Source: Guyanagaster necrorhizus (Eukaryota > Basidiomycota > Agaricomycetes > Agaricales > Physalacriaceae). Taken from it: 64,000 bases of DNA. Below are positions 37,644-60,930 of the stretch, in pieces (position 1 is the stretch's first letter; each line of letters opens with the position of its first letter). Where the stretch lies: contig NW_025064880.1 in NCBI RefSeq assembly GCF_019112545.1, positions 1,890,536-1,954,535 on the forward strand, in the 5' to 3' direction. The translations under genes and the position numbers were made by a program. A model generated the notes under the pieces. It was given only the letters and a program-made list of their open reading frames with translations, was not told where the DNA came from and searched no databases.

Positions 37644-37715
37644 AGCAGCATGGCGCAGTGGTAGCGTGCGGGGCCCATAACCCCGAGGTCACTTGATCGA
37701 AACAAGTTGCTGCTA
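37644..37715 (+). tRNA. initiator tRNA-Met (CAT), no intron
   Basis: The acceptor stem AGCAGCA (37644-37650) pairs with TGCTGCT (37708-37714), and the discriminator is A. The anticodon arm reads GGGGCCCATAACCCC, placing CAT in a seven-base loop after the initiator-type G:C pairs. The T-arm loop has GATCGAAAC rather than TTCGA, which is the eukaryotic initiator signature. The first pair A1:T72 is also initiator-specific. The A box is TGGCGCAGTGG (37651-37661). Confidence 0.95.
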
Positions 37716-37741: not shown

Positions 37742-38124
37742 CCCTTTTCTAAGGGAAATCTATTTGGCTTCACTCTCCAGAGTTCCCCAGGACCAGGACC
37801 CAGACCCGGGCAAATATTGGACGTGTGTATTGCGAATCCTCCAGGGTATGTACATGTAGTACTTAAAAATTCCGTATAACCAACTTCCATATTTTACCGG
37901 ACATTCAACGGATCACATGAGGTCAACTTTGCCATCGATATCAGTGTCTGTTGCACCTGTACCGTTGTCACTGGACCCTGCACGACGGAGCGCCTAGAAG
38001 TGTTGACTAAGCGAAGGAGAGACCTCAGCTCTCAAGTCTCTCTCGTTGGTAGTCAGCGATGAGCGGACTGGTTTTGGATCATCTTCGCATAAAAGCCAGC
38101 TTCGTACTGTAAGACGCCTTCACA

Positions 38125-39849
38125 ATGCCCAACGAAATGTGGTCCTTCATCGACATCCTTGCTTCCGCTTTCCTCGTCGCTCATCTCGCCTTTGCGCAGA
38201 CTGTCACAACGGACCTTTACTCATCCCTGATCCCTTCCAAGGTTTTGGCCACCGCAAACAAGTTGAATAACCAGTTCCCTCAGTATACCGACTCGACCGC
38301 AGGAGTTTGGCAGTTGTTCAGTGCGGACACCTGGACCTCTGGATTCTTCCCCGCCACGCTGTATGCGCTGGAAACACGCCAGAGCCTGTGCGAGGCGACC
38401 TCTGCGAATGGGCTAAACGCGGCGGATTGGGCCGAACTGGGACGGCAGACAAGCGCTGGGTTGGCCCCCCTGACGACGAGCAATAGTGTTGGACACGATG
38501 TGGGGTTTTTGAGTTTCCCGTATGTGGAGGAACTAAGCATGTTGGTGTCCCTTATGTATCTCTACATACAGCTGAATTTTCCTAGCCATCCAGACAACAC
38601 CACAGCGGCTGACATTGTGAATGGCTTTGCGACATATCTGGCTGGACGATTCAATCCTACTGTGGGGTGCACGAGAAGTTGGGATTCGTCTGATCCTACG
38701 GATTTCGTGGTGCGTGCCCTGATGGACTCAACGTGTTGGTATTCTGATAAAGTCGCTGCAGGTGATTATTGATAATATGATGAACCTCAATGTCCTCATG
38801 GTCTCTGCCCAATTAACCGGGAACTCGACGTTGAGAGACATCGCTACTTCGCACGCCAACACGACCATGAAAAACCATATACGAGACGATGGTATGGCTA
38901 CTCCCTAATTTCATAATAAATCATATCCAACTTCATTAAATTCAGGTTCGACGTGGCACGTAGTAGAATATAACGCCACAACGGGTGCCGTTATAGACAA
39001 AATAACAAGCCAAGGATATGCTGACAATAGGTGGGAGTCTTTCTGTTTGCTCTTTCAACCTCGCTCCAGCTTGTTGCAGCACATGGAGTCGCGGACAAGC
39101 CTGGGCGGTATATGGATATGCAAATAGTAGGCGCCTGCTCTCTATCTAGTGATGACTTGTCCAAACTGATGCTTTCAGTGTACAATTGGACTGGGGACAG
39201 CAATTATCTGGTGACAGCCCGCCATGCAGCTACATATTTCCTCGACACTCTTCCTTCTAATGGAATCGTACCATGGTATCGTTCGCTCTCCGCTGTATTG
39301 AGAACCTGTCCCTGATAGATCATTACAGGGATTTTAACGCTCCAGTGGAGAATCGTCCAGCGGATTCTTCTGCAGCCACAATCGTGGCAACTGGTCTTCT
39401 GTTACTCTCCAAGGTTGAGACCGATCCCACGAACAGTACAAATTGGTCTACTGCTGCTATCAGTGTATGTTATTCCGGTACTCTATTGTAGTTCGCAAGA
39501 TTGACTTCATATCGGTGCATAGATTTTGAACAATATCACGTCGCTAGCTTGGGATCCTTCCTGGGAAAGTTTACTGGCGAATGGGACGGTGAATAAGCCT
39601 GCGAACAACTACCTGACTGGGACCGTTTATGGTGAGTAGAATTAAGTGTTTAATCGCCTTTGCATTCTTATGTCATTCTCAGGAGATTACTATTACATCG
39701 TTGCCGGCAATGAGCTCATTTCGATGGGCCTCGCGAACTGCACGACACTCGCAACCACCAACACCAACACTACCAATACTAACACCACTTCCGTCTCCAA
39801 CAGTGCCCGACGCAACAGCCATCCTTACTTCCCTTTCTCCTTATTTTGA
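38125..39849 (+). CDS. secreted GH88-type unsaturated glucuronyl hydrolase
   Basis: GH88 enzymes hydrolyse the unsaturated uronic acid left on oligosaccharides by polysaccharide lyases. The start at 38125 (MPNEMWSFID) is followed by a signal peptide core ILASAFLVAHLAFA. Then come FPQYTDSTAGVWQLFSADTWTSGFFPATLYAL, GHDVGFLSFPYV, an intron, VIIDNMMNLNVLMVSAQLTGNSTLRDIATSHANTTMKNHIRDDG and STWHVVEYNATTGAVIDKITSQGYADN. The family motif STWSRGQAWAVYGYAN appears once the acceptor at about 39077 is used. Next are MYNWTGDSNYLVTARHAATYFLDTLPSNGIVPW, DFNAPVENRPADSSAATIVATGLL and GDYYYIVAGNELISMGLANC. It ends in a Thr/Asn-rich tail. Seven or so short introns are all consistent, so the gene looks intact. 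A cataaaag box lies at 38088-38095. A decayed tandem copy follows at 40,690-41,820. Confidence 0.87.
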
Positions 39850-40689: not shown

Positions 40690-41820
40690 TATCATAATTC
40701 TACCGGGGATTCATTCACATGAACTCAACTTTGCTGTCGATATTACCTGTTGCACCTGTACTCTTGTCATTGGATCTATTTCTTTGCCATTTCCTGTACA
40801 CCTGGATGTCGTGAGCAGACGGAGCACTGACTAAGCGAATGAGAGACCGTCTCAACTCTCAGAGTCTTTGCAGTCAGCGATGGGCGGACTGGAATCGTAC
40901 CATGGTATCGTTCGCTCTCCGCTGTGCTGAGAACTTGTCCCTGATCATTGCAGGAATTTCAACGCTCCAATGGAGAATCGTCCAGCGAATTCTTCTGCAG
41001 CCACAATCGTGGCAACTGGTCTTCTGTTACTCTCCAAGGTTGAGACCAATCCCGCGCACAAGAAAATATGGTCTACTGCTGCTATCGATGTATATCACTT
41101 TCATTTACTGTCCTTCATATGACTGAGTTCATTTCGGTCCGTAGATTTTGAACAGTATCATGTCGCCGCATGGGATCCTTCCTGAGAGAGTTTACTAGCA
41201 AACGGGATGGTGAATAAACCTGCGAATGACTACCTGACTGGGACAGTTTATGGTGGGTAGAAATTAAGTATTTTATCATTTTATCGTCTTTGTATTCTTA
41301 CGTTATTCTCAGGGAATTACTATTACATCGTTGCCGGCAATGAGCTTATTTCGATGAGCCTCGCGAGCTGCACAACTTGATCAAACAGTCAACAGAATCT
41401 ATCCCAGCTGTATGTAAAGTACAATGATGACAACTTTCGGTGGCATACAAACTATACAAGTCGAAGAAACAGTCTGATAAACTTCGTGAACCTCTTTTCG
41501 ACATGCTAACTGCGATTTCTGGATTCTTCATCGGGATCTCACTTCGCATCACCCGCTGCATATCCTCACTCTAGCTAAAATTTCTGGCGTCGGCATGTAT
41601 TAAGGCGGCTGTTTGTCTGCTTGCAATTTTTCGTCTCTCACTCGTTGCGTGCTTTACTCGACGTGAGCTTATCTTTCCCCCGTCAGCGGATTGATCAGAG
41701 TCATCCACGTCAAGTTTCAACTTGCGCTCTCTCTCTCCATTGGGTGCAGTCTCTCATCATTCGACTTGCTCCGATGTTTCAGCTCCGTGCAAAGGCTGTG
41801 AAACAGGCTCAATGAAGGCA
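40690..41820 (+). pseudogene. internally deleted tandem copy of the GH88-type gene
   Basis: Positions about 40,700-40,890 match the upstream region of the intact gene (about 37,905-38,070): both carry CACATGA..TCAACTTTG, TGTTGCACCTGTAC and CAGCGATG(A/G)GCGGACTGG. Right after GCGGACTGG the copy jumps to the exon segment AATCGTACCATGG that lies at about 39,265 in the intact gene. It then follows the 3' exons (TCCAGCG(A/G)ATTCTTCTGCAGCC, TATTACATCGTTGCCGG) to about 41,365 and the downstream flank to about 41,820. About 1.2 kb, covering the signal peptide and most catalytic exons, is missing. Substitutions and short indels are scattered throughout. It cannot encode an active enzyme. Confidence 0.8.
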
Positions 41821-42080: not shown

Positions 42081-42088
42081 TATAAAAG
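42081..42088 (+). promoter_or_regulatory. TATA box of the metallothionein gene
   Basis: The sequence is TATAAAAG, 84 nt upstream of the metallothionein ATG. It leaves room for a short leader, as is common for strongly induced fungal metallothionein genes. Confidence 0.6.
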
Positions 42089-42164: not shown

Positions 42165-42364
42165 ATGAACACAGTCAGTCATCATGTCCTTCTGCCGCGT
42201 TCTTTTACACTCATCTTCTCTCAGATGACTGCTCTTCCCGTCAATGCCGCCTGTGGCTCTTCCAGTTGCGGCTGCACCACTACGTACATTACCATCTTAT
42301 GGCTCGTTAACCACTAAAGATTTCTCTCAGTTGCAGTTGCAAGCCTAACGAATGCAAATGTTAA
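42165..42364 (+). CDS. 7-cysteine fungal metallothionein, 33 residues, three exons
   Basis: Metallothioneins are small Cys-rich proteins that bind Cu, Cd or Zn in the cytosol and detoxify or buffer metal. Three exons, 42165-42173, 42225-42283 and 42331-42364, splice across introns gtcagt..ctctcag (51 nt) and gtacat..ctctcag (47 nt). The product starts MNTMTALPVNAA and its cysteines fall in C-x4-C-x-C-x3-C-x-C-x4-C-x-C, ending in Lys-Cys-stop. That spacing is the one I know for mushroom metallothioneins of mycorrhizal and wood-decay species. The second intron falls in the middle of the Cys array, so no single open frame shows the protein. An alternative start at 42225 (MTALPVNAA) would shorten it to 30 residues without touching the cysteines. 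A TATA box lies at 42081-42088. I saw no clear metal-response element by eye. Confidence 0.9.
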
Positions 42365-42792: not shown

Positions 42793-44176
42793 TCACATCC
42801 CTTCGAAATCATACCCAATCCCCCGATGCTCTTCCGGTACCTTGATATTTCTTAGCAACGGATCCAGAGAGGCGAGCTCATCCTTGATTCCATTCCTTGC
42901 GAGGTTATCCAGCTCCTTCAATAGTGTTGACGTCATTTTCTGATGACCGCTTAGCGCGTTTTATGCAAGAAAGGGACAATAAATATGCACCTTGAACTTG
43001 CCGTCGACCTTGTGAATCATATCTCCCAGAGTGGGAGTCCAGCCACCAGGGGGTGGACTGCCCACACCACTCATCGTTGTTCCGATGGAACCGCCATTGG
43101 CGATTGCCCAGAGACTCCCGTTTGGCTCCTCTCCAAGTTGCGGCTGTGGTTGATTGATGCTCGGGGTGGATTGACCGTTTGTCAAGACGGAACCGTATGG
43201 GTTTGCGCTGTGTGTCGGATTATCCGATGCGAAAAGATACGACACGCCTGGATGCGGTGAAAGGAGGCCTAAGGGCCCCGTCATTTGCTGCGAAGGGTGA
43301 GAAAAGGGTAAGGGGCCGAGAATTTTGGATATCTTGTTATACACCTCCGAGATCACGTCGAGCAATGAGAGCAGCGTCTGATGATAGTCCAGAGGATACG
43401 GTATGTGGGGCGTCATTAGATACGACGCGTCGTCAACAACAGATCCTGAATATTCCGCAAAATTGCCCTGTCGCTTCCCTGGTTGCCGTCGAAAGAGACG
43501 CTTGGGCTGCCGTATTTTGGACTTGTCACTGTCTTCCTTTGACTGGTCGTATTCGTTTAAAGTGTTAATGAGTCCTCGAAGCAGGTCCTGTGGCTGATTT
43601 ATATCGAGAAGATTTGAAAGAGACATTCCCAGGATAGCGAACCGATGCGTCCTAATATAGTCAGCAAAAGACAATAGAGCAAGCGCAATACACACACCTC
43701 TTCTTCATGGCCTCGTTATTAAATTCCCGTTCCAAGTCCGCTCTAGATATGTAGATAGTGTGAAACCAGTGACTCCTCCTGGGGCAGTCAGTAATGGACC
43801 AGCTGGGAGGGCGATCCACGTACCCTTCATGCATATTCCGCACGTATGTCAATGTAATTATTCTCTTTTGCATGAGATCCCGGAGCTGGTCCACAGATGT
43901 TCCTTGGTTCAGCGCAGTAGCCGTGACGCCTATGGACTCTGAATGAAGGGATTGAGCGTCCCATTCCCTCGCCATAGGTGTCGTTGTCGTCGAGGTCGGG
44001 GCCGCTACTATCGAGCTAAAAGAAGCCACGGCGGTGTTCAACGGCGTAGGACCGGATGAATTGCCAGAGACCGGATTCTTGAAGGACGAGAGGAGATTCT
44101 GCGCAGAGGACTTGCGACGCATCGTGGGCCGCTGTGGCAAATCTGAAGAGAACGGCGCGAATTGAAGCTGTGACAT
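42793..44176 (-). CDS. conserved fungal protein of unknown function
   Basis: I do not recognise a characterised family. The start at 44176 (MSQLQFAPFSSDLPQRPTMRRKSSAQNLLSSF) is followed by Ser/Thr-rich sequence. A helical segment comes next (GTSVDQLRDLMQKRIITLTYVRNMHEG), then, across an intron, HWFHTIYISRADLEREFNNEAMKKR. Another intron leads to THRFAILGMSLSNLLDINQPQDLLRGLINTLNEYDQ, LLSLLDVISEVYNKISKILGP, a Pro/Gly-rich linker and the final exon (KKMTSTLLKELDNLARNGIKDELASLDPLLRNIKVPEEHRGIGYDFEGM), which stops at 42793. Amphipathic helices and no membrane segment suggest a soluble complex subunit. It is the last host gene before the transposon island. Confidence 0.75.
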
Positions 44177-44384
44177 TCTTGCATCAATCAGTTCCGTGCA
44201 GTCTACTTCTCAAATCAGAAGTGTAGAACAAGGAGTTAGACAATATTTACTATGTCTACTTTTGTAAAATTAAATTCATAATCTAAATAAGCATACAGAA
44301 AGATTATGTAATATGTGTACATAAATACTACATGTCAGAATTCAATTGATAACCTAAATAGGCACAGTATCTTGTATCTCGTGC

Positions 44385-44480
44385 CTAATTGGCTGGAGTG
44401 CATGGTGCGAGCACTGGTCTAGCGGGAAGCCGCTCACGAGAGCAGAATATTATTACAACCCTCACACTTCAACATGTTTG
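44385..44480 (+). repeat. 96-bp direct repeat, copy 1
   Basis: The sequence starts CTAATTGGCTGGAGTG and ends TTCAACATGTTTG. It matches positions 44872-44967 without length change. This copy keeps several CpG sites (GTGCGAGCAC, AAGCCGCTCACGAG) that are TpA, TpG or CpA in copy 2. Confidence 0.75.
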
Positions 44481-44871
44481 AGTGCTGGGTGAGTACAAAG
44501 AGTAGATACAAAGAGTAATGTACAAGGGACATGAAATTACAACTACAATGTTCTGTTTCTGATAGAAAGACAGGGCATTCACTATTAGTACAATGTCAGT
44601 AGCCCAAGGTCAGAGAACACACCTGGTGAGACAACAAGAGCATTAGTCTCACGTGTGTTTCAACCAGGCCAAATAGATATGCCAGGAAAGAATGGTGGAA
44701 AGCTTCTCATGATAAGATGAACTATATGCTGAGAGGTGGATATATGCAAGGAACAGATGTATGCCAGGGGGCAGAATGTTGATGCCTGCATAGTAGACAT
44801 CAGAGTCAGCAGCTAAGAATGACACATACTTACTTACCAATTACCCTTGTGTAAATCTCTTTTAAATCTGA

Positions 44872-44967
44872 CTAATTGGCTGGAGTGTATGGTATAAGTG
44901 TTAGTCTAGCAGGAACCTACTCACAAGAGCAGAATATTATTACAATCCTTATGCTTCAACATGTTTG
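44872..44967 (+). repeat. 96-bp direct repeat, copy 2 (CpG-decayed)
   Basis: This is the same repeat as at 44385-44480. Its differences are mostly C/T or G/A transitions at former CpG positions. The start-to-start spacing is 487 bp, so the pair may belong to one decayed element such as a short LTR pair. I cannot assign it to a class. Confidence 0.7.
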
Positions 44968-46294
44968 AATTGAGAGATAAGATGAGAGAAAAAGACAGTC
45001 ATAGTGATTAGAGTTGAGATTTGATTAGAGCATGTAAGAAAACAGAGTTCTTGCAAATGTAGAGTGCAAAGGCATCCAATGACCAATAACCATAGGTCTA
45101 AATGATGTAAGACAAGATACCATCCTCAGCTAAAGCCATAGCACTATTAGAACTCAATACAGCATTAGTTTATCATGTGTTCAGATTATATGCAACTTGG
45201 GCATAACAATAGATGGATTAGCCAGCAAAATTAGAATTGAGAAAAAGCTTTCAGAGATGTCTTATAAACTCTATTCAGGCAGGAATAGATCTATGAGAAG
45301 TGATCCATAAACTGAGTTGAAGGAGAAAGTGTTTGTTATGATTTGCAAGATATATGATGAAAACTAGGTAAAGGTTGATTGTCAGATCATCAGAAGAAGG
45401 AATGATTGCTTTTGAATGTTGTATCAGCTTTGTGTGTGAGAAGCAAGAAGATATATATATCAGAAAACCACTCAACTGAGGACTGGCAGACAGTTTTCCT
45501 TTATGATCACAATTTCTTTATGTCAGATATACTGAGCTTAGCAAGACACAAAAGGCTATTGAAACCAGTGACTAGCATTGTGACAAAGAGTTAGTCATCA
45601 TAATTAATAGAGTTGGCAAAAGTGATGATTGCAAGTCATACATCATCCTAAGAGAGTGATAGCTTTCTTTTTGTAAATCTCACAAACAGTGACATCCTTT
45701 TAAGATCTCTAAGACCAAGTTGCTATTCTGGACAGTGCATGCATTAGAAAAAAAGATTTCCAATCAATTGCAGATCCTAGAAAGATATATGACCTGAAAG
45801 TTAGATATCTTAGCTAACATTTAAGAGACCTCAAAAGCTTGCTACAAGCTAATGTTTGGCAGTAGAACTTCACTAGACCTCTCCAACTATTCTTTTACTT
45901 GCCATTATCAAAACTTTATTCAACTACCAGTGTATTAGAGAAGAGAACTTTGAAAGTTTACAGCTAGAACATTCTCTTTCTCTAAAAGCTTGCAACTAGA
46001 TCTTTTCTCTTTTATATCAAACAAAGCTTATAGCTAGAGCTTCTGTTTATCTATTCTTCACTCACTCTCAGCATCAAACACTCTAAAACTTCACTCACTA
46101 CTAGAGCTTCCTTTTCACTTGTTATCAAAATTCTTCACCAAGAACTTAGCACATTCTTGCTCACATATAGAGCTTCCTTCTTATTATTATCAAAGTAAAT
46201 CCATAAGAACTTCTATTGATACACTTTTGCTCACACATAGACCTTCTCTAGATCTTTGTTCATACATAGAGCCTCTTTAGAACTTCACTCATCA

Positions 46295-46604
46295 TGTTAC
46301 AATTTTTTAACTTTTTCTATCTTTTAACCTATTCTCACTTAATCAGAGTGCTTAACCAAGCACTTAATATTATGAGACTCACTTATACAACTATAATAAA
46401 CAGGCCAAGCTCATTGTTCTGCAACAGTGCCAGAGCCTCTTGATGACAGACAATACCTTTTTGTAACAGTAATGACAACCAAGAACAATGAACACCATAA
46501 TGTAGAAATGCCTATAAAGCACAATAAGTGGACTCAGACATGACTGTACAAACATACAGTATCTGTTTACCATATGTTTAATTCACATGCAGTTTGAGCT
46601 TAAT
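46295..46604 (+). repeat. degraded LTR, second family, internally deleted
   Basis: It starts TGTTACAATTTTTT and ends GTTTGAGCTTAATA, matching both ends of the LTR at 60355-60873 (TGTTATGATTTTTT ... TTTGGGCTTAACA). Shared inner blocks include AGAGTGCTTA(A/G)(A/G)CCA(A/G)CACTTA and CTCATTGTTCTG. The central part with the TATA box and predicted transcript start is missing. Confidence 0.65.
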
Positions 46605-46649
46605 ATGAGCCTATGTGGCAGAAAAATCTGCCTGGACATTACTGGTGAC

Positions 46650-47180
46650 TCAGAGAGCAGCAAATGGCTGACACCTACTAGTTAGACATGAGTGAAGGGC
46701 TCTAGTACCTCACATTACCAGAGTACACTAAGGATCTAGTGGACAGAGTATGAGCAGAAACTAGGGTAGCAAAAGTAGTACAGAATGCCAAGAGGCACTG
46801 GGAGCCCCCCTTTTCTTTCTCTTACTATGTGCCTGAACAACTGCCATCAACAGAAAGCAGTCTAAGTAGTTAGGGAAGCCAAAATCTCTTTCAACAAACC
46901 TTCTGATAAGTTCTAGCATTGCCCATCCATCTATTTGCCAGAGCAGGGCCCACTACTGGCATCAGCAGCAACTGGCAAAGGCAAAGAAAGAGAAAAATCA
47001 GTAGTGCTATTCCCTCTGCTGCCTGAGAAACCATCTGATCACCCATGGTATGATTAATAGCTGTGATCTCTGCCAAAGCCCAAAAAGCCTACACTACTAC
47101 TGATACTGATGAATTAGAAATTGTTTGACTAGCAGACTCTCTGTAAGCAAAAAACACAAAACCTATTTGGTAAGTGAAAC
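46650..47180 (+). pseudogene. stop-riddled relic of an unknown coding sequence
   Basis: One frame from about 46,663 reads MADTY, DMSEGL, YLTLPEYTKDLVDRV, AETRVAKVVQNAKRHWEPPFSFSYYVPEQLPS and LALPIHLFARAGPTTGISSNWQRQRKRK. It is interrupted only by TAG or TGA, each explainable by one C-to-T or G-to-A change. I do not recognise the protein. The gypsy element at 47,633 is inserted just downstream. Confidence 0.45.
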
Positions 47181-47632
47181 TAAGGCACAGAATCTGAAGG
47201 CTGGTCCTAGTGAGTCTAATCATATACCTCTATATGGTGACTAGTCTCTAAATGGATATAGCAAGAAGTAGCTATATGGATATGAGACTCTGAATTGTTT
47301 ACAGTGACTTACAGTTTATATATAAACTTTTCTATAACAGAAATATCATATAAGAATCTGGATAATAGATGGTGCAATCTATATGCAATGTGAACTTTTT
47401 ATTGTTGGAATCTTATATATGGTCTCAGTGGGGTCTAGAGAAACAGTTAGTGTTTTCCAGTTATCTTTCAAAGTCTTCTGTTAGGTTTAGGCAGTGTGAG
47501 GATGATATGCAGGGGCAATAGATCTCTTTCATGTTTTTTAGAGATAAAGCAAGACAAAGCAATATTTCATGAATTAATAAGTTTGCTATTATCATATGCA
47601 AGCATTATAGAGTTGTCAAGATGCTATAGCAC

Positions 47633-48130
47633 TGTTATGCACATGCTGCCAGCCTCTGTGTCACCTCAACCAACCACAAATTCAATTATGCTATCCATCA
47701 GACTCTGGCCACTTCTCATTACCTACTAATTTCATTTCACTATTATCATTTCACATTTATATTTCACATTGTAATATCTAGACTCTGAACTCGGTAGCAA
47801 ATACTAACACCGGAACCCAATGGAATCCAACTCAGAATTAGCTACCATTAGTATATAAAGCCATGTACATCATTGTAACTACTCAGTTTGAATATCAACT
47901 TGGATAAGCCAGCTACACTTCACACCCACTTTCACACCTTCTTACCTCATCTATCAGATTCCACTCTGAAGAACATTCTGATTTGCTCCTCTAACAGAAC
48001 TTCATTTGGTCCATCCAGATCCTTGAGCTCTGACTCAAGGGTGATGTTGCTAATAGCTTCATCAATGCCCATGCACTCTGCCAGACTCCACACATGCACT
48101 CAAGCCCACTCAATTGGCATGTTCCTAACA
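47633..48130 (+). repeat. 5' LTR of the chromovirus
   Basis: The 498-bp repeat aligns without gaps to 55115-55612. It holds the TATA box TATATAAA at 47852-47859. The predicted transcript start, about 33 nt downstream, coincides with AGTTTGAATAT (47885-47895). Confidence 0.93.
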
Positions 48131-48132
48131 GT

Positions 48133-48143
48133 ATATTCAAACT
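48133..48143 (+). promoter_or_regulatory. self-primer binding site (Tf1-like)
   Basis: ATATTCAAACT, two bases after the 5' LTR, is the exact reverse complement of AGTTTGAATAT at 47885-47895 inside the same LTR, at the predicted mRNA 5' end. I see no match to a tRNA 3' end at this position. The layout is that of Tf1/sushi-type self-priming. Confidence 0.7.
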
Positions 48144-48169
48144 CAAACCCTTGAGTCAAAAATTTTATC

Positions 48170-49620
48170 ATGTCCACCACATTTACTGAACTCACAGAAA
48201 CTGATCTCAAACAAACCCAGCCCACCCATCCAAATATGTTTTCTATGGAAGACATTCTGGCCTCTGCCTCAAAGGAACAACCAGGTCTTTTCAGATCGGC
48301 CTCTAGTAGAGGACAACCTTTCTATAGGGAAACCTACAATCACTCTAGCTTCACTGCCTGCCAACTTAATTATAATGATTCCTCTAACCCTTTTGATGCC
48401 ACCAGCATTCCAACCAATAGAGTCTGACAGGCCAGCCTGATGTATAGTGCCCAAACTGACTCTCCAATAGACCTCTTATCCTTGGGCAATATGCATGGGA
48501 ATCCAGACAGCCCAGACTCAGAGGGCAGAAATAAAGACACCTCTACTCATACTCTCATCTAATGAGAACCAGATAGTAATCCACCAAACCCTTTTTCAGG
48601 TAGACTAAGAGGATCAGGAGACTCAGGTGGTCCCAATGACTCAGGCAGCTCTAATGGTCCTGCAAGAAGTAACAATTCAAACCAGCAGAACATATTTCTA
48701 GAATTTATAAACCTGTTATGAGGAGTCTCTGCTTCCCTCAACAACTCTAAACCAGCCACTATTCATACCAAGATCAAGGAACTGGAACCATTTGATGGCT
48801 CTGACTCTCACAAACTGAAGGCTTTCATTGTCTCCCTTCAGTTGAACTTCAACAACAGACCTACTACATTTGCAACAGATGCTAACAAGGTTAACTATTC
48901 CATCTCATTTCTGGCTGGCACTGTGCTTAACTGGTTTGAATCAGACACTCTTAACCCCAATCCATGGAATCCACCAGCCTGGCAATTCTCCTATGCAGCT
49001 TTTCTAGATGAGCTTCATAGCAACTTCAGCCCCTTTGATGCTATCAGAGATGCTGAAGATGCATTAGAATACCTTTGGATGTGCAATGGAGACTGGATCA
49101 TAAAGTATATAGTCTAATTCAACCAGTATGCTTCACAAATTGAGTACAGAGATAACTCCCTCTGCCATACCTTTTACCATGGCCTCTGCACCCATATCAA
49201 AGATGACATGGCACACTATAGGAAGCCAAACAACCTTTGTGATATGTGCTTCCTTGCCCAAGAACTTGATGCTTGCTACTAGACCCAGAAGACTGAAATT
49301 GCCCATGAAAACTGGGACAATAAATTCCCCAACCCCAAATCCAAGGGGTCTAACATGTCTTTCTCAGACTTCAGCTCTACACTGAAATCTACCACCTCTA
49401 AGCTCTATGCTGATAAGCTAGGCAAAGATGGCCATCTTACTCAGGAAGAAAAAGACCACTGGCACCAGAATAACCTTTGCATATTCTGTGGAGCCAAACA
49501 TAAGACTGAGGACTGCAACAAGTAGAAGGCAGCAGCCTCTGCCAAGGGTTATGCAGCAGAAGTTGACATTGCTCCTGTCAGAAAACTAGAAAGCAACTCT
49601 GTTCTCTCTGTGTGAGTTTA
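48170..49620 (+). pseudogene. gag of the chromovirus, with CCHC zinc knuckle
   Basis: The frame starting at 48170 (MSTTFTELTETDLKQ) is broken by several TGA/TAG stops, some shortened frames and no large deletion. The capsid core is visible in FDGSDSHKLKAFIVSLQLNF and YSISFLAGTVLNWFESD (about 48790-48950) and in HSNFSPFDAIRDAEDALEYL. The nucleocapsid knuckle CIFCGAKHKTEDC (49478-49516) fits C-x2-C-x4-H-x4-C with all four ligands kept. The product would package the element RNA into virus-like particles inside the cell. Confidence 0.85.
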
Positions 49621-49726
49621 GGGTTGCATTGACTCTATTTGCACACCGAAGGTCATCACTCTCAATGCAATATTCCTTTCCAATCACTTCTTCCACATTC
49701 CTCTCTCAGCAGAATTACCAACTACC

Positions 49727-52700
49727 ATGAAACCTGATGGTTTCCCAACTTGTATCATTCTGCATTTTCTTGCTCTTATTGATTCTGGCTCTAGCCACTA
49801 CTTTATTAACACTAAGTATGTAGCTGCCAATGAAATTTCCATTAAAACCATCTCTAGTGTGCAACTTCAATTATTTGATGGCTCCATTGGAAGCCATATA
49901 TCTCAAATCACAACTATTCCTATCCATTTCCTGTCTGAAGACACCTTTCCCATTGACTTCTATGTCACTCCTCTGGATTCATCTTGCAATCTTGTCCTAG
50001 GATACAACTGGCTCTCCTACTACAATCCACTGATTGACTGAGCTGAGAACAGTATCATTTTTCACTCAAGCTACCAGGACCTCACTCCAACCAATTCCAC
50101 AGTCTCCACCATATCCCAGGGACTTCCATGCCCACAGGACAATAGTCCACCCCTCTCCAAGCCTTCCAGCTCAAATCTGGGACTTCTATGCCCATTGGAC
50201 TCCATCAGTCCAACTCCTGGAGCTTCATTCCATTCCAAATTGACTCTGGGTAACCAGTGGACTCTATTCCTATACAAACTCATCTACTCCTATCCTCCCT
50301 CAGAGTCTTTTACTGTGAAAGCACATCCAAAGATCTTCATTATATCTACTGCTGTATTTGTCTGAGCCAGTGCAGAAGAAGGTGCTCAGCAGTTCACACT
50401 ATAGCCTTTCTTGCCTAATATTAGAGCCAAAGCCGCATCTGCAGAACTAGCAGATCTTTCATCAGTTCCAGTAGAGTACCATAATTTTGCAGATGTCTTC
50501 AGTGATACCCTCTCTGAAAAGCTACCCAAACACAGGCTGTATGACTTCAAAATCAACCTTGAGGAAGGAACATCTCTACTGCTTGGCTCCATTTATTCTC
50601 TCTCAGAATCTGAACTCAAGGCCCTATGAGAGTTTATTGATGATAATTTATGCAATAGATTTATTACTCCATCTCACTCTCCACATAGAGCTTCAGTTCT
50701 ATTTGTCAAGAAAAAAACCAGTGAACTCTGACTTTGCATCAACTACCATAGCCTAAACAAAATCTCCAAGAAAGATCACTATACTCTCCTTCTCATTTCC
50801 AATCTTCTCGACTCCACCCACTCTGCACACATCTACACTAAGCTTGACCTTAGGCACACCTACTATCTCATTCACATAGCTAAGGGGGATGAATGGAAAA
50901 CAGCCTTTCAGACCCATTATGGTTCCTTCAAATAGCACATCATGCCTTTTGGTCTCACAAATGCTCCAGCAGCATTCCAATGATTTGTGAACAATATATT
51001 CTCTGATATGCTCAATATATCAGTAGTAGTCTATCTCAATGACATTCTTATATATTCCAACAATCCAGAAGATCATCAGAAACATATTCAAGAGGTCCTA
51101 CATAGGCTTAGAGCTAATGGACTCTACTGTAAAGGTTTCAAATGCAAATTCAACCCAGACTCTATGGAGTATCTAGGCTATATCCTATCATCTGAAAGAC
51201 TTTGCATATCTGAAGAAAAAGTCAAGGCCATTATTGACTGGCTGGTGCTGCAAAAAGTTAAGGACATCCAATCCTTTCTTGGCTTTGCTAACTTCTACCA
51301 TTGCTTCATATACAGATATAGTGATATCATCATCCCCTTTACATGACTCATCCACAAGAGAACTCCATGGAAATTTGACGACAATTGCTTAGCTGTCTTT
51401 AATGAATTAAAACAGACCTTTACACATGCTCCCATCCTTACTCACTGGGTTTCTGATCAAAAAATAGTGGTGGAAACCAATGCCTCTGATTATGCCATCA
51501 CAGCTATCCTCTCTATCTACCTTGAAGATGGTGAAATTCACCTGATTGCATTCCACTCTCAGAGCCTCCACAATACCGAACTCAATTATGACACCTATGA
51601 CAAAGAGCTTCTGGCCATTTTTGAAGCTTTCAAACATTGGCAGCACTACTTTAAAGGCTCTGCAGACTCCATTGATATTGTAACAGACTACAAGAACCTT
51701 GAATACTTTGCCACCACTAAGATTCTAATCTGCCAACAAGTCCACTGGTCTGAATACCTATCTCAGTTCAACCTAGTAATTTGTTTCTGCCCTGGAAAAC
51801 TTGGTGGAAAACTGGATGTGCTCACTAGATGATGGGATGTCTACCCTAAAGAGAGGGATAGCCAATATGCCCAAGTCAACCCTCACAATTTTTGACTCAT
51901 GTTCACTCAAGAATAACTTTCCACATCACTCCATGCAATCTACCTTGAAGGCTCTACCCTCTGAGCCAGCACCATCATGGACATTGACAAGCTCCACATC
52001 AATATCAAACAAGCACAATCTTCTGATCCTATATCCTCTAATAGCCTCTGCCAGGCTAAGGCCACTTCAGAATCCTCTCTCAGTGGTCCATTGATGAATC
52101 AGACATCCTTCACTTTGAAGGCTGCATTTATGTCTCAGAGTCCAGAGATCTCTGTCTCCATATACTACAGAACAATCACAATCACATCTTGGCAGGCCAC
52201 TTTGATCAAAACTGGACATTAGAACTAGTCTGGCAGAACTATACCTGGCCAAAGATGCATGAATATGTCTGACACTATGTTAAGTCCTGCACAGTTTGTG
52301 GGTGCAGTAAGGCACCTAGACACCGCCTCTATAGGTTACTCAAACTTCTGCCAGTTCTCAAATGGCTATGGGATTCTATTTTCATGGACTTCATTGAACA
52401 ACTACCAGACTCCAACAGATTTACCACCATCTTAGTAGTCATAGACTGAGCTAGCAAGCAAGCTATCTTCATTCTCACTTATGACACTATTAACTCCATG
52501 GAGCTCACTCAACTTTTCCTTATCTATATATTCTCTAAACATGGGGTATCCAGTCACATCACATCTGACTACAGCTCTGAATTTGTCTCCCAATTTACTC
52601 ATGCCTTAGCTGTGGCCTTTGACATAAAACTCCATTTTACCTCTGATTATCATCCAGAGGCTAATAGACAAATAGAACAAGCAAACCAAACTTTAGAATA

Positions 52701-53449
52701 ATACATCTGCATCTACTGCTCCTACCAGCAGGACAACTGGGACACCCTCTTATCTATTGCTGAATTTGCCTACAATAATGCCCCTAATGTATCCACTAGA
52801 ATTTTTCTATTTTTTGCTAACAAAGGTTACCACCTCAACATCACTATTCACCCTGAAAGGGACATCACCTCCACCCAGACCTAAGATTTTGCAGTCAATC
52901 TTGACAAACTTCATCAATTACTGAAGGATGAAATTTTCAAAGCTCAGTCTTGCTACAAAATCCAAACAGACAAGCATTGGATTCCAGCATCCCTATTCAC
53001 AGTGGAAGACAAGACCTACCTCAGCTCCAAATATATCAAAATCACCCACCTGACCAGAAAAATTTTAGAAAAATACCTTGGTCTTTTTAAAATCATAGCC
53101 CAACCTGGTATCCACTCTTTTACCCTGAGGCTTCTGCCAGATCTTCAGTCTATTCACTCTGTCTTCTATGTGTCACAATTGGAATCCATAGAAGAAAACA
53201 CCATTCCTAACTGAATCCAACCACCACTGCCTCCAGTCGAAGTCAACAGAGAAGAACATTTCAAAATAGCTCAAATTTTTGACTCTAAACTGGACTGCTG
53301 GTTCTGCTGCTCACTGTTGTACAAAATCCAGTGGCTAAGATATGAAGGTACCAATGAAGAATTTGCTTGGTTACTGGCCTCTGAGTTCTCCACCAATGAA
53401 TTCATTGAAGAATTCCACCACTGATATCCAGACAAACCAGGACTCTTGT
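49727..53449 (+). pseudogene. pol of the chromovirus: protease, RT, RNase H, integrase, chromodomain
   Basis: The protease has LALIDSGSSHYF (Asp at about 49781). RT runs about 50,530-51,350: [24 protein letters not shown], and the catalytic box as YLNDILIYS (about 51,032), where the family has YLDD, so one catalytic Asp is Asn. RNase H begins VETNASDYAITAIL (about 51,471) with ELNYDTYDKELLAIFEAF. The integrase has AGHFDQ and CTVCGCSKAPR (zinc-binding half), then IFMDFIEQLP, HITSDYSSEFVSQF and EQANQTLE (about 52,380-52,700), so the DDE residues are kept. A chromodomain at about 53,253-53,449 (FKIAQIFDSKLD ... LYKIQWLRYEGTNEEFAWL) would target modified histones. Stops interrupt every domain. 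Confidence 0.88.
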
Positions 53450-53802
53450 TCAAAGTCATTCAAACATCCCATTCCTAATACAATGCTACTCTGGATACTA
53501 CCAGCACTCCACCTTACCATTTCAATTCTAACCACTAATTACTACTATTTCAATCACCTCTTTTACACTTTTAAAATCAAAACCTTGTATTTACATTTTT
53601 TTTCTCTACTACCAACATCCAATGCCCTTTTCTATATATATTTTATACAAATATTTTACAAAGAAGCAGAATCTGACAGGCCCACACTGGAATCTGAACT
53701 CTCTCTCTGCTCCTTCAACTCCTCTATATTCTTGTCTAGCTCTTTCAACATTGCCTTCCAAAGATTCTCTATTCTTTGATCTCTCTTATCCTTGAAAATC
53801 AG

Positions 53803-55063
53803 TCAGGCCTTCTTCCAGACCTCCATCTTGGACTCCAAAAACAGCTCTGAAGGAGATGACATATCATCAGAACCATAGTCATCTTGAAGACCTGCCACAG
53901 TACCATGAACATCCACCATCTTGTCTGCCAACTCATCCACATGATGCATCAACTTGCATATCAATTTTGAAAGTTGATAGAGACTAGTGGAGATCTCCAC
54001 ACTGCTGATCACCTCACTCATAGTGACACCCTTGTTGAACAAACAGGCATTTTTCTTGACCTTGCAGCAAGAGCAAGTCTGCCTTTGATCAGCCCCTTTG
54101 GTTACCAGTTGTGCATAACACTATATGCTATCTTGATGACAATGCACACAACTCTCTGAAAACAAAAGCTAAGTTAAGCCATGAAAGAAAACTAAGACAC
54201 TTACTTTCACTATCCAATAATTCTTTGCTCTCTGCCAGTCCTACCACTTCCAACTTCACCTGCTTTTTGGAGCTAACAACCACCTCTGTCCCACTGCCAT
54301 CCACTATGCTCTTCAACCTGAACTTGCATTTATGGCCCTTCTCTGCCAGACCTGCTGCCCTTCTCTTTCCCTCCCACACCCTCTTCCTTCTCTCTAGAGT
54401 CCTCTCAGATTCCTCAGACTCATTGTCTCCCTCAGTCCCCTTATCCTGCTTATCATTGGACCCTGGAGATGCATGGCAAGTCACTTTCTTAAAGTGAAGA
54501 CCAAGACCAGGACCAAACCATTCCACCAACACTTGATGCAGCCAGAAATCAATGGCCTCCATGAAGGTCATTTGCAACCCATCCTCTGTAACCATCCCCT
54601 CTGGCTCTATCTCCTCAGCCTCAACCCTTGCTGCTGCCTCTGTAGCCTCTCTCTTCTCAGCCTCCCTCCAAGCCATCTCTCTCAACACTTCCTCTGCCTC
54701 CTTCACTTGCCTCTCCATGGCCTGCTGAACCTCCTCCCTCTTCCTCTCCAATTCCTCCCTCTACTTCTTTTTCTGTGACTCCTGGGTCACATAGTCTGCC
54801 CAGGCCCTTTTCTCCTGCTCCCACTCCTCTTGCCATTCCAAATGGCTCTCTATGGCCTCTGCATATTCTTCCTCCACAGATTGCCATTCCAGATGAAACA
54901 ATTCCTTGGCCTCTTCAAGGCCATCAGGAGTGAATCCCCTCACCAGAGGCTTGAGAGAGTGTGAGTGATGATACATGGTGAGCGATGACATAGATGAAGA
55001 TGGTGGTTTCAGTTCAAGCTGCAAAACTCCTATAGCCACTAACAATCTTCTATGTGGCCCCAC
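53803..55063 (-). pseudogene. antisense accessory ORF between pol and 3' LTR
   Basis: On the strand opposite to gag-pol a long frame runs from 55063 (MGPHRRLLVAIGVLQLELKPP) to 54128, with one TAG at about 54,770. It continues in pieces to 53803. The product is highly charged and helical (KELFHLEWQSVEEEYAEAIESHLEWQEEWEQEKRAWADYV, then REMAWREAEKREATEAAARVEAEEIEPE), followed by FMEAIDFWLHQVLVEWFGPGLGLHFKKVTCHA and a Lys/Arg/Glu-rich tail. It would form a coiled coil. I recall similar charged proteins annotated alone in other mushroom genomes. The function is unknown. Confidence 0.6.
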
Positions 55064-55114
55064 CAGCCATCAGGATCTGCACACTTGAGGGCAAGAATGC
55101 TAAGGGGGGGATAC

Positions 55115-55612
55115 TGTTATGTGCATGCCACCAGCCTCTATGTCACCTCAACCAACCATGAATCCAATCACACTACCCACCAGACTCTGGCCACTTCCCA
55201 TTACCTACTAATTTCATTTCACCATTATCATTTCACATCTGTATTTTACATTGTAATATCTAGACCCTGAACTCGATAGTGAATACTGACACTGAAACCC
55301 AATAGAACCTAACTCAGAATTAGCTACTATTAGTATATAAAGCCATGTACATCATCATAACTACTCAGTTCAAATATCAACTTAGATAAGCCAGCTACAC
55401 TTCGCACTCACTTCCACTCCTCCTTACCTTGTCCATTGGATTTCACTCCAAAGGACATTCTGGTTCACTTCTCTAATGAAACTCTGTTCAGTTCATCCAG
55501 ATCCTTGGGCTCTGACTCAAGGGTGATGTTGCCAATAGCTTCATCAATGCCCACACACTCTATTGGACTCCATGCATGCACTCAAGCCCACTCAATTGGC
55601 ATGTTTCTAACA
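55115..55612 (+). repeat. 3' LTR of the chromovirus
   Basis: It has the same length as the 5' LTR with no indels. By hand count it differs at about 72 of 498 positions, almost exclusively by transitions. The self-primer region has become AGTTCAAATAT here. Confidence 0.93.
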
Positions 55613-55617
55613 AGCAC

Positions 55618-56399
55618 TCTCAGTCAAAGGGTATTGACCTATAAGTGGTCTGTATAGCTAATTCTATTGGAGGGGTGTCATACTGGTATACAGTTTTAGT
55701 ATAGATGTCCAGTAGTCTCAGTATTGCTTATTCTCCTTTTTATGTGTTATCTTATACACTACTTATACTATCCTTTTACTAATACTAAGTATGCTACATT
55801 TAAACAGCCTTTGTAACTGCAGTACTAGCTTAGTGAGCCTAATGAAGTTTTTATTACACAAAGTCTTAAAGGCTGTGAAGCTTTTAATAAATATTGCATA
55901 TTTAAAAGTTTATGTAGCTAATAGTACACTAGTCCTTCTAATATTCTTTATATATCTAACTAAACACAGAGTTAGTCCTTTGTGGCCTATTACTCTTCTA
56001 TATGCTAGCTGTAAAAAGCTTAAACATCTATAGCTAGCTTTATATATATATTGTGATAGACTTTATAGACTATATTAAAGTGCTATATATATACTAACAA
56101 TGATATATGTCTTATATGATCAAGGATTGTAGTTTTTGGCCTGGTCTATAGTGCTTATTAGAATTAAAAGTTCACATGTCATAAAGATTAATGAGAAAAG
56201 TTTGCAAGGACAAGAAAAGTTTGCAGACAAAAGGAAAGTTCATGTATAACATACAATCTTCATGCACAAGGGAATATCAATGAATAATGGATAGTTCTTG
56301 ACAAAATTACTGCCATTGAACCCCAAATGATTGGTTTACTAAAAGCCTGCTTAAGGACAGAAGTCAAAAATAATTATTGAGGCTCATAATTTTAGAGCA
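55618..56399. other. AT-rich decayed DNA between elements
   Basis: Only short frames exist and most of the sequence has TA-rich low-complexity character. The last 250 bp may be a very decayed part of the pol gene whose integrase end follows. I cannot support a more specific call. Confidence 0.4.
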
Positions 56400-57299
56400 C
56401 ACAAAGTCTAGAGACTCATCAATGATCTCTATCATCTTTTTAACATCTGAAGCAATGCTTCAACCACTTATCACTCACAAACTGATAGGCAAACTGAGCA
56501 TGTTAATCAAGGAATCAAAAAGTATCTTTGAATGTTCATCAATCACAGACAAAATGATTAGACCAAATGGCTTGCTCTAGCAGCATTCCAATACAACAAC
56601 TATGTTCACTCTGCAACAAACAAGACTCTCTTCTTCATTAATCATGAACATCATCTCCATGTTATAGTCACTAACTGATATAACACTACAACTTCTGTTT
56701 CAACCAACTTCACATAACTCATGACTACAATTCATGCTAAAATACACATCACTCTTAAAAAGGCTGCCACTATTATGAAGGCACAATATGATAAACACCA
56801 GTGACCTGCTCATGAATACTCTATCAATGATAAAGTCTGGCTGGATACCAGCAACCTTCATCTTTCATGCCTAAAATGCAAACTTGCTGATAAACAAACT
56901 GGACTCTTTTCTATACTTGCAAAAGTTGGTGCTTCTGTATACTGCCTAAAGCTGCCTGGCATCTAGTGCATACACTCAGTCTTTAACAAAACCCTTCTCA
57001 TCCCTTACATCATGTCTGCCTTTCCTAATCAAGAAACTCCACCTCCTTCTGAATCAATTCTAATCAAAGATGAGAAACACTATAAAGTCAAATAGATTTT
57101 GGATTATAAACTCTGCAAAGTTCATGTCCAGAGAGATGGCAATCATACTGTCACCTACTATTTCATCAAATAGAAAGACTATAGATCTGAATCCAACTAA
57201 TGGGTCTATAAAGAGGATCTGAATGCAGACAATGCCATTCATGACTATAAAATTTCCATTAATTGATCCATTGAGATAATAGTCTTAAAGAAGAAGTGA
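56400..57299 (+). pseudogene. integrase end and chromodomain of a second Ty3/gypsy element
   Basis: One frame gives YHSQTDRQTEHVNQGIKKYL, MFINHRQNDWTKWLALAAFQYNNYVHSATNKTLFFINHEHH and later KVWLDTSNLHLSCLKCKLADKQTGLFSILAKVG. It then gives ILDYKLCKVHVQRDGNHTVTYYFIK and DYRSESN, a chromodomain-like end. These are hallmark segments of gypsy integrases. Stops are TAG or TGA where the family has Trp, Arg or Gln. The fragment runs directly into the LTR at 57300. Confidence 0.8.
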
Positions 57300-57756
57300 T
57301 ATTATGATTTTCTCTATATCTTTTTTTATCTTATTTTATCTTATTTTATCAGAGTGCCTATCTTCTCTTGAGCACTTTCTTGAAGAGCATGAGAATATTA
57401 AGTAATCACAATATATAGAGTGCCATTATACTCAGTCATCTCACCCACAGACAAGTTCCTATTGTTTTACTCCTAATGACCAGACAGAACCAGTATCTTA
57501 GCACAAAACAGTACAATAGACAATAGTTATATTTATTATAAGCTGAACAGTATATAAATAAGATAGCTCTCACTGTAGTAGCCTAGCTTCAAGCTATAAG
57601 TTTATCTCATACTATCTTCTCTTGAGCCTAGTCTGTCTCTAGCCTTGAAGCACTTTACCTATCAGAACATATTTAGTGAACTCTAGTATGACTGTACAAA
57701 CATGATACAATGCTAGTTTATCATATGTTCAGGTCACATACCAGTTAGATTTAACA
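57300..57756 (+). repeat. 3' LTR of the second gypsy family, decayed
   Basis: It starts TATTATGATTTTC (family start TGTTATGATTTTT with G to A) and ends GATTTAACA. It shares AGAGTGCCTA, GTATATAAATAAGATAGCTCTCACTGTAGTA, CTTCAAGCTATAAGTTTAT and GTTTATCATATGTT with the LTR at 60355. It follows immediately after the integrase/chromodomain fragment, as a 3' LTR should. Confidence 0.75.
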
Positions 57757-57959
57757 TATCTAGTACAAATAATCTCTAGAGCTCTATTGCTATAGTTTTC
57801 ACTGGCATTCTGGGGCTTGATACTGTCTCACTAAGAAAAGCTTCTATTTCTCTGATTGTTCTTGCTTAAGCACCTCATCTTAGATCTTTATCTTGTTGAG
57901 TCATTCTAACTCAGATAAGTTTATGCCACCAAAAAGTCACTTCACAATCTCATCATAGT

Positions 57960-60354
57960 TTTTTAAGCTCAGTCTCTCTCTGAATCCATTGCTCAACTAT
58001 TCTGGTGACTCATCATTCAGGACCAATATGTTGACTTTTCAAAACTTTTTGCTTCAATGAACTGAGGATATGATCACAATGAGAAGACAAAAGAGCTTAT
58101 AGCAGAATATGCTATTATCAGGAAAGATATTTTATCTGCCAAAAAGCTTTTCAGATCAGAATCTGACTGATGCAGAGTATATGATGTCTGGACTAGAGGT
58201 GTTCAGGTTCTTTATCCACACTGTAAGGCTGAACTCAAAGCTTATCAGAAATATGTGATCAAAGTTTTTCAGACTGCATCTTATGACTCCACAGTTGCTA
58301 TCTATATTGATGAAAAAGTTCAGCTGCAATATGTCTTTTGCTCTTCTTTGATTTCTTCAGACACAAAGGAATTTTCATCTGCTTCACTCTCTGCTATAAA
58401 AAGGTCAACAGTTCTATGTGAAAACTGAAAACTGAATTTCTGCCAAGATTCATATATCAATCACTATAGGCATGGTACTTATAGTGAATGCAGCTTAGGA
58501 CACTGAGCTAGAGACACTGTCAAATGCACTAATCTCCTCTAATCAAAAAGGAGACTTAGATTTGGAAGAGGTAATAGTGAAGGTAATAGCAGCAGCAGCA
58601 GGACCTAGATCTTTAAGGCCTCAAAAACACAAATGTGAGGACCAGAATATTAGCCTATATTTTAAATATAACTATGTCTGATCAAATAGTTCTATATCAT
58701 CTGTATCTATATCTCTCACTGCTCAATCTACTGAATCAGCCTTTCCTTTACTCTCTTCTCTTTCACATCTACTCAATGATCCATTCTTATAGGCTACACT
58801 ACATACTTTAAAAGATGTTATTATAGTTGACACACTATTCAATGTTAATCACTTGAAGAATATTCTTCAGTTTCATCCAAATGAACTCTTCACCTCCTGA
58901 GTCATTCATGATCTTCAGAATAGATTCTAGCCTCTCAATCTTAGTGAATGGAAAGATTCTCTTTATAACAAGACAGAGAATTATGCCACAGATCTCTAAG
59001 ATATCAACAAAATATAAGTATTCCATGATCATGAAGTTGCAGCTAGTCATTGGTCATCACTTCTACCAGATGGGCTTACATTCCTACCAGATATGAAATA
59101 TAAAAGTATCATTTATATTCATAGTCTGGCAGGATGAAAAACTCTGTATCATAATGGATCATACTTTCTCTGGTTTAAATGCAGGAATTCTGGCTAGCAA
59201 GGCAAAAGTCAAATATGATGATATGCATCTATTTGATGAGGCTCTATACAATGCTAAAATACAATATCTCCATGCTGATTTCACTCTATATAAAAGCAAT
59301 GTCACTAAGGCTTTTTGAATTTATCAGCACATCCTTTATAGTACTAAATGTTCTGCTATAGGGCTATTCTGCTCTTCTTTATACAAAAAGATGGCTAGAA
59401 AGACTTACTCTTTCACAAAGATCTTCATTAATGCTGCTGTTAAAGAGGATCTCTTCTAGTTTTCATCTATTCTTTCAGATTCTATAGGCCATTGCTTTAT
59501 TGACTCAGCTCTCTGAACTGACTCAGAAGCTGACATATTATTCTGGATGGATGCTAGCATAAAAAATGCATTATCATTTGTTTTTGTGAGAATGGTTTTA
59601 TATACCAGCTTCACTCATCTTTATCTAAAAATATAATTGACATCTTCTTTTTTGAGCTTGTCACTATTTTTTTTATTATTTATTATATAGTATCCCTACT
59701 CAAATCTCCTTGACACCTCTTGCTTTTTACTGACAGCCTCAATTCTGTCACTGTATTTGATTCTCTATCTATATCAGAACCTCTTTACAATAGACTCTTA
59801 CTTGGAGCAGCAGACCTTATACTCAGATCAGGAATTAATATTCATATTTGACATATCGATAGAAAGAATAATATTCAGGTGGATATGCTTTCCTGACTCT
59901 TTTAGATGACTATCATCATAAATTCTCTATTGACTGCATTCATACATTTACTCTACCAAGAAACTTATTATCAGCATGATGAAGACAGTCCTTTTAACTG
60001 TGCTGAGCAAGCATGCTCCTCATATTGCTTGCTCAGCTTTTTTTTCTCTTTTTGATAAATATATTCTTTTTCTCTAAGCTCATGCAATTGAGCTTGGAGC
60101 AGCAAAGAGTTATGCAATAGGAGCATATGACTATATATGGTTTTGCATTATTTATGCATTGTCACTCAAATCTACACCACTTACTCTCAGCAAATACATA
60201 GCCTATACATTCCAATTTATCTCATCTAGCTCAAAATATCTGACTGGAGTCTATCACCTTCTAAAAGATCTGTATTCTGATTTATAATAGCTATTCATGC
60301 ATTGCAATCAATCTGAGGGCAGTCTCTAAGGCTCTTGTTATAGCTGGTTACATC
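57960..60354 (+). mobile_element. tyrosine-recombinase retroelement (DIRS/Ngaro-like), decayed and interrupted
   Basis: A gag-like part (about 58,000-58,600) reads ILSAKKLFRSESD, WTRGVQVLYPHCKAELKAYQKYVIKVFQTA. RT-like sequence (about 58,850-59,460) contains FHDHEVAASHWSSLLPDG and MKYKSIIYIHSLAG. RNase H-like sequence (about 59,536-59,930) contains LFWMDASIKNALSF and LLGAADLILRSGINIH. About 150 bp later comes the N-terminal, SAM-like part of a tyrosine recombinase (about 60,090-60,290): ELGAAKSYAIGAYDYIWFC, LSKYIAYTFQFISSSSKYLTGVYHLLKDLY. It breaks off exactly where the LTR at 60355 starts. No methyltransferase fits between RNase H and recombinase, so it looks more Ngaro-like than DIRS1-like. 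The terminal repeats were not found. Confidence 0.6.
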
Positions 60355-60873
60355 TGTTATGATTTTTTCTATTTTCTTTTCTTTTTTCTCAGAAATGACC
60401 CCTATCTTCACTTAGTCAGAGTGCTTAGGCCAGCACTTAGAACTGTGGGAAGGCTTAGTCAGCAACCCAGTTGGTCATTGTTCTGTCGCACTGTTGTATG
60501 CTGTGAAGGGAGAGACAATACTCCTTTTGTCATATAACTGTAACATAATGATAACAGCACAATAGCAAGATAACAGCCTTTATGAAGAGCCTGGCAATAG
60601 TAGGGGAAACAGCTCTACAGCAGACAATGTCTTTTGTGAATCTCTATTTATAGTCAGATAACAAAATGGTATTTAAGTAGTATAGCTCTCGCTGTAGTAA
60701 CCCCAGCTTCGAGCTAAAGTTTATTCTCTACTATCTTATCTTGAGCAACTTGCAACAATACTTTGACTATATAACACTGATAGTGCATCAGTGAACTCTA
60801 ACAGTATAACCCAAAGTGCAAGGTTCTGTTAGTTTATCACATGTTATCAGTCATATGGAGTTTGGGCTTAACA
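60355..60873 (+). repeat. 5' LTR of a second-family gypsy element
   Basis: The 519-bp repeat starts TGTTATGATT and ends GGGCTTAACA. It has a TATA-like TATTTAAG at 60670-60677. The predicted transcript start about 35 nt further on carries AGCTTCGAGCTAA (60705-60717). It still holds some CpG (CTCGCTG, TTCGAGC), so it is less decayed than the copy at 57300. Confidence 0.8.
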
Positions 60874-60874
60874 A

Positions 60875-60887
60875 TTAGCTTAAAGCT
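60875..60887 (+). promoter_or_regulatory. candidate self-primer binding site of second family
   Basis: TTAGCTTAAAGCT, right after the LTR, pairs with AGCTTCGAGCTAA inside the LTR except at two adjacent bases. There the LTR has CG and this site has TA, as expected if an original CG was lost here by deamination on both strands. Confidence 0.5.
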
Positions 60888-60930
60888 TCTAGCTTCTCTT
60901 TCTCAGGCCCAATTGTGCTGAGGAACTAAA

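Follow-up and report, generated by a model that had tools for sequence, protein, structure and literature searches.

Metallothioneins of the Agaricomycetes, whose short members have at most 35 residues, carry as their hallmark a highly conserved C-terminal array, C-x4-C-x-C-x2,3-C-x-C-x4-C-x-C (PMC12508003). Table 1 of that publication gives 17 peptides, nine of them short (32–35 residues). In yeast, all 17 protected against Cd and Cu alike, and protection against Zn was recorded for 5 of 11 peptides tested; these shares are biased upwards because they concern characterised proteins, some of which came from yeast screening (PMC12508003).

The candidate gene described here resembles AcMT2 of Agaricus crocodilinus in having seven Cys, the C-terminal hepta-Cys consensus, a similar length (33 residues vs 32 in AcMT2) and, as predicted here, three exons with introns of ~ 50 bp, a comparison made by published description (PMC12508003). 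The two differ in that presence in a Cd–peptide complex and yeast protection have been shown for AcMT2, whereas the gene here is a prediction from DNA. PiMT1 (Paxillus involutus), LbMT1 (Laccaria bicolor), AsMT2, CcMT1/2, PaMT1 and ShMT1/2, all of 33–35 residues, are aligned under the same motif, and metal induction is tabulated for several of them (PMC12508003); we liken our peptide to these by motif and length.

More distant systems share parts of this architecture. Tremella TmMT and Cryptococcus CnMT, both long metallothioneins, also have basidiomycete-type Cys arrays in short exons, and the first six Cys of the TmMT repeat, CXCX3CSCPPGXCXCAXCP, are spaced like the last six of the 33-residue peptide (PMC4755600). 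However, TmMT and CnMT contain many repeat units and reach up to 257 residues where our peptide has one unit, and its seventh Cys precedes the array rather than following it. The copper metallothionein of Neurospora crassa and Agaricus bisporus (family 8) is comparable in being small and in having seven Cys, of which six form C-x-C pairs, but it has 26 residues and the spacing CXC-X5-CXC-X3-CXC-X2-C (PMC4755600). Our peptide does not follow that spacing, and we rejected assignment to the Neurospora type.

Gene model and predicted peptide

We use "window" for the whole 64-kb stretch of DNA that was analysed. The gene model comprises the following features:

42081..42088, plus strand: putative TATA box TATAAAAG, 84 nt before the ATG, presumed to act as one
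42165..42173, plus strand: coding part of exon 1, ATG AAC ACA = M-N-T
42174..42224, plus strand: predicted intron 1, 51 nt, GTCAGT...CTCAG, phase 0
42225..42283, plus strand: exon 2, 59 nt, encoding MTALPVNAACGSSSCGCTT and two bases of the following Thr codon; Cys 1–3
42284..42330, plus strand: predicted intron 2, 47 nt, GTACAT...CTCAG, phase 2, splitting the Cys array
42331..42364, plus strand: exon 3, 34 nt, with the final base of the Thr codon, then CSCKPNECKC and TAA; Cys 4–7

In silico splicing of 42165–42173, 42225–42283 and 42331–42364 (+) gave a CDS of 102 nt, which translates to MNTMTALPVNAACGSSSCGCTTTCSCKPNECKC*, a peptide of 33 residues with seven Cys in the spacing C-x4-C-x-C-x3-C-x-C-x4-C-x-C. 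The TAA stands directly after the final Cys. A preliminary description of this DNA had proposed exons of 9, 59 and 34 nt joined into just such a peptide; its lengths proved exact (9/51/59/47/34 nt with the introns), both introns are bounded by GT...AG, and translation of the joined exons reproduced the residue number, the Cys count and the spacing. It had also held that the array is invisible in any single frame, with an intron inside it. We found three of the Cys in one frame of the unspliced DNA and four in another, and the peptide is absent from the list of open frames of at least 60 aa.

Retention of intron 2 would introduce an in-frame stop. Three choices of intron 2, the proposed one included, yield at least five Cys, and seven are obtained from the proposed one only. 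A possible second acceptor for this intron lies 6 nt downstream (42331–42336), and its use, moving the intron end to 42336, would leave a form of 31 residues with six Cys.

The spacing with x3 in mid-array is the conserved consensus given in PMC12508003, and it stands at the C-terminus of our peptide provided that intron 2 is removed. The length lies within the 35-residue limit at 33 residues in the three-exon model, and would be 50 with intron 1 kept. Predicted exons of 9/59/34 nt and introns of 51 and 47 nt agree with the structure of AcMT2, intron 1 being uncertain. We put at roughly 0.9 the probability that the locus encodes, in three exons, a short Agaricomycete metallothionein of the AcMT2/PiMT1/LbMT1 kind. 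The preliminary description had already called it a metallothionein, and very probably rightly, given the identical published spacing, the length, the predicted exon number, the intron size and the C-terminal array; the locus fits a family already described.

The 5′ end of the gene

The choice of exon 1 together with intron 1 is the weakest point of the predicted gene model and its least certain part. Fungal introns usually begin with GTRNGT, a pattern that intron 1 does not follow with its donor GTCAGT, and this counts against the model; a branch-site-like word, CTCAT, is found close to the 3′ end of the same intron. Its 51 nt are in frame and free of stops, so that retention would give a 50-residue form, and an ATG opens exon 2 directly after the acceptor, from which a start would give 30 residues. 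Together with the imperfect donor, these features speak for a real metallothionein with another 5′ end, made either by retaining intron 1 or by starting at the exon 2 ATG. We consider this unlikely, since the nine short peptides of Table 1 in PMC12508003 have 32–35 residues, a range that 33 fits, and AcMT2 has three exons. In addition, a search of 5.8 billion proteins found no relative of the 50-residue form and no candidate sharing three words with it, which is a weak negative.

By simple arithmetic (one third × (61/64)^17), chance would make some 15% of introns like this one both in frame and stop-free, so this property of intron 1 is by itself no sign of regulation. We give little credence to the idea of intron 1 as a switch, whose conditional retention would produce a 50-residue metallothionein besides the 33-residue cytosolic form from the same gene. 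If there were such a switch, the longer form would carry a hydrophobic N-terminal extension and would possibly be sent to another compartment.

Flanking DNA, host and relatives

The word TATAAAAG has three plus-strand copies in 64 kb, with 0.007 expected per 150 nt. One of them is indeed present at 42081–42088, where the preliminary description had given the gene its own TATA box, and its distance from the predicted ATG would be a fitting one. We looked for seven metal- or stress-response words, MRE, ARE and an ACE1-type word among them, in the 500 nt upstream. Four were absent and none was clearly above chance: MRE had two sites (matched by 29 of 500 shuffles), ARE two (38 of 500) and the ACE1-type word one (223 of 500). 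Over the 3.3-kb locus MRE was not enriched either, its two sites being matched by 158 of 200 shuffles. Because these upstream words were not clearly above chance, we name no regulator; two Copper-fist domains above cut-off in the genome make copper-dependent regulation possible. Neither AATAAA nor ATTAAA occurs within ~ 340 nt 3′ of the stop. A bacterial-type promoter scan was set aside as having no bearing on a fungal gene.

The neighbouring features are as follows:

37913–39743: upstream gene; its longest frame starts at 38125 and has, by eye, a signal-peptide-like start
42961–44209, minus strand: long open frames, no Pfam match
51347–51832: RT RNase H domain, within an AT-rich stretch

The gene had been placed between a carbohydrate gene and a transposon island. 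On the transposon side the domain examined is the RT/RNase H at 51347–51832, and the minus-strand frames at 42961–44209, which may be a gene, lie in between. The carbohydrate label is weakly supported: for the longest frame of the upstream gene, Pfam gave no match up to E 0.1, and the best match in PDB was to a family 88 glycosyl hydrolase, without significance (E 0.077). The AT-rich stretch spans 44001–62000 (GC 0.34–0.44), with negative GC skew over 46001–62000. Upstream, a tRNA gene at 37644–37715 (Rfam RF00005, 57.1 bits) is the only Rfam match above gathering score in the window.

The upstream gene has undergone a tandem partial duplication. Its second copy, at 40715–41373, is 85% identical over 39261–39743/40890–41373 and contains nothing matching ~ 38072–39260; it looks like a decayed copy. 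The duplication extends no further than 41729, short of the metallothionein. Such a partial, diverged duplicate means that decay goes on nearby, and this would suit a metallothionein pseudogene or silent relic. We regard a relic as very improbable, because the gene has kept all seven Cys, the frame, the stop, the GT..AG boundaries of its two introns and an intact TATA word.

The host was placed by means of a Dicer-like gene at 6640–10391, which extends over several open frames; its helicase part was read by eye only, and the Dicer dimerisation and RNase III domains are in frame 7722–9887. A protein search with this frame gave 122 matches among 7998 scored candidates. The top match had 57% identity, and the best named one among the matches listed (the best 120 of the 122) was Hymenopellis radicata (Agaricales, Physalacriaceae) at 59%. 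Other named matches among those listed include Paramarasmius (Agaricales) and Astraeus (a bolete relative), both Agaricomycetes. Judged from this one gene, the host is an Agaricomycete, thus of the group in which the short metallothioneins are described, and most likely an agaric.

Searches for paralogues covered the organism's own genome (53.3 Mb in 109 contigs). The sole DNA match was the metallothionein locus itself, and the peptide matched nothing but exon 2 of the same gene (E 1.5e-7, 91%). One place in the genome matched the fungal family PF12809, below cut-off (E 0.54); a script found neither a dense Cys frame nor a hepta-Cys array there, and we rejected it as a paralogue. One copy was thus found, and we make no single-copy claim since diverged paralogues would be missed.

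Against Pfam-A the peptide matched no family, even with E values as high as 10 admitted, and thus no metallothionein family above the curated cut-off, a result that carries little weight for so short a peptide; the lack of a match in PDB and NCBIfam is a similarly weak negative at such length. Six peptide fragments had no occurrence in the literature text searched. Among the titles listed for metallothionein in Physalacriaceae and for Armillaria/Flammulina/copper, none points to the gene, and the passages of PMC13314834 on Hebeloma and arsenic hold nothing bearing on gene structure.

Rarity of the array and probable function

The window was searched on both strands for the hepta-Cys spacing with x2 or x3 in mid-array, allowing the array to be continuous or to be split by a single GT..AG intron of 40–90 nt. 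The spacing scanned was one already fixed by publication (PMC12508003). The single match was the metallothionein locus, and 40 first-order Markov strands of 64 kb each (2.56 Mb) gave 0 matches. A rough analytic expectation for both strands is 1.2e-4 spliced matches per window, derived from a TGY frequency of 0.0328 and 25,056 possible GT..AG pairs, and 1.1e-5 unspliced ones, although the true odds are less extreme than computed because these figures cover one spacing and other Cys arrays might catch a reader's eye. Splice sites were freely chosen by a reader on the lookout for something striking, but with that expectation, none of the 40 randomised strands matching and a spacing equal to the published consensus, it is extremely improbable that the array is a chance product of convenient splice-site picking.

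As a short Agaricomycete metallothionein, the gene would work as follows. The pre-mRNA would start a short way past the putative TATA box (42081), possibly upon metal induction, and removal of the two introns of ~ 50 nt would leave an mRNA encoding the 33-residue peptide, presumably cytosolic. Its seven thiolates, six of them from three C-x-C pairs and the other from a Cys ahead of these, would wrap soft metal ions in a cluster. The ions bound would be Cu(I), Cd(II) and perhaps Zn(II), and their capture would lower free metal in the cytosol. By analogy, then, the peptide is probably a cytosolic Cu/Cd chelator: to the frames, Cys spacing, rarity and TATA word observed in the DNA of this locus, the published family would add metal binding and yeast protection.

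The locus also shows why gene finding based on open frames misses such genes, as its predicted coding sequence is cut twice by short introns and the second cut falls within the Cys array. That genes of this size are often missed had been remarked in the preliminary description, and it is in print that metallothioneins are often misannotated owing to their short exons (PMC4755600). Since so simple a scan gave one match in 64 kb and none in the 2.56 Mb of randomised strands, applying it to further mushroom genomes may bring overlooked metallothioneins to light. No view of fungal metal handling is changed by this locus, and its value in illustrating how small genes that were missed can be recovered is modest. 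It probably adds one further likely member to a known and studied family of fungal metallothioneins linked to Cu and Cd tolerance.
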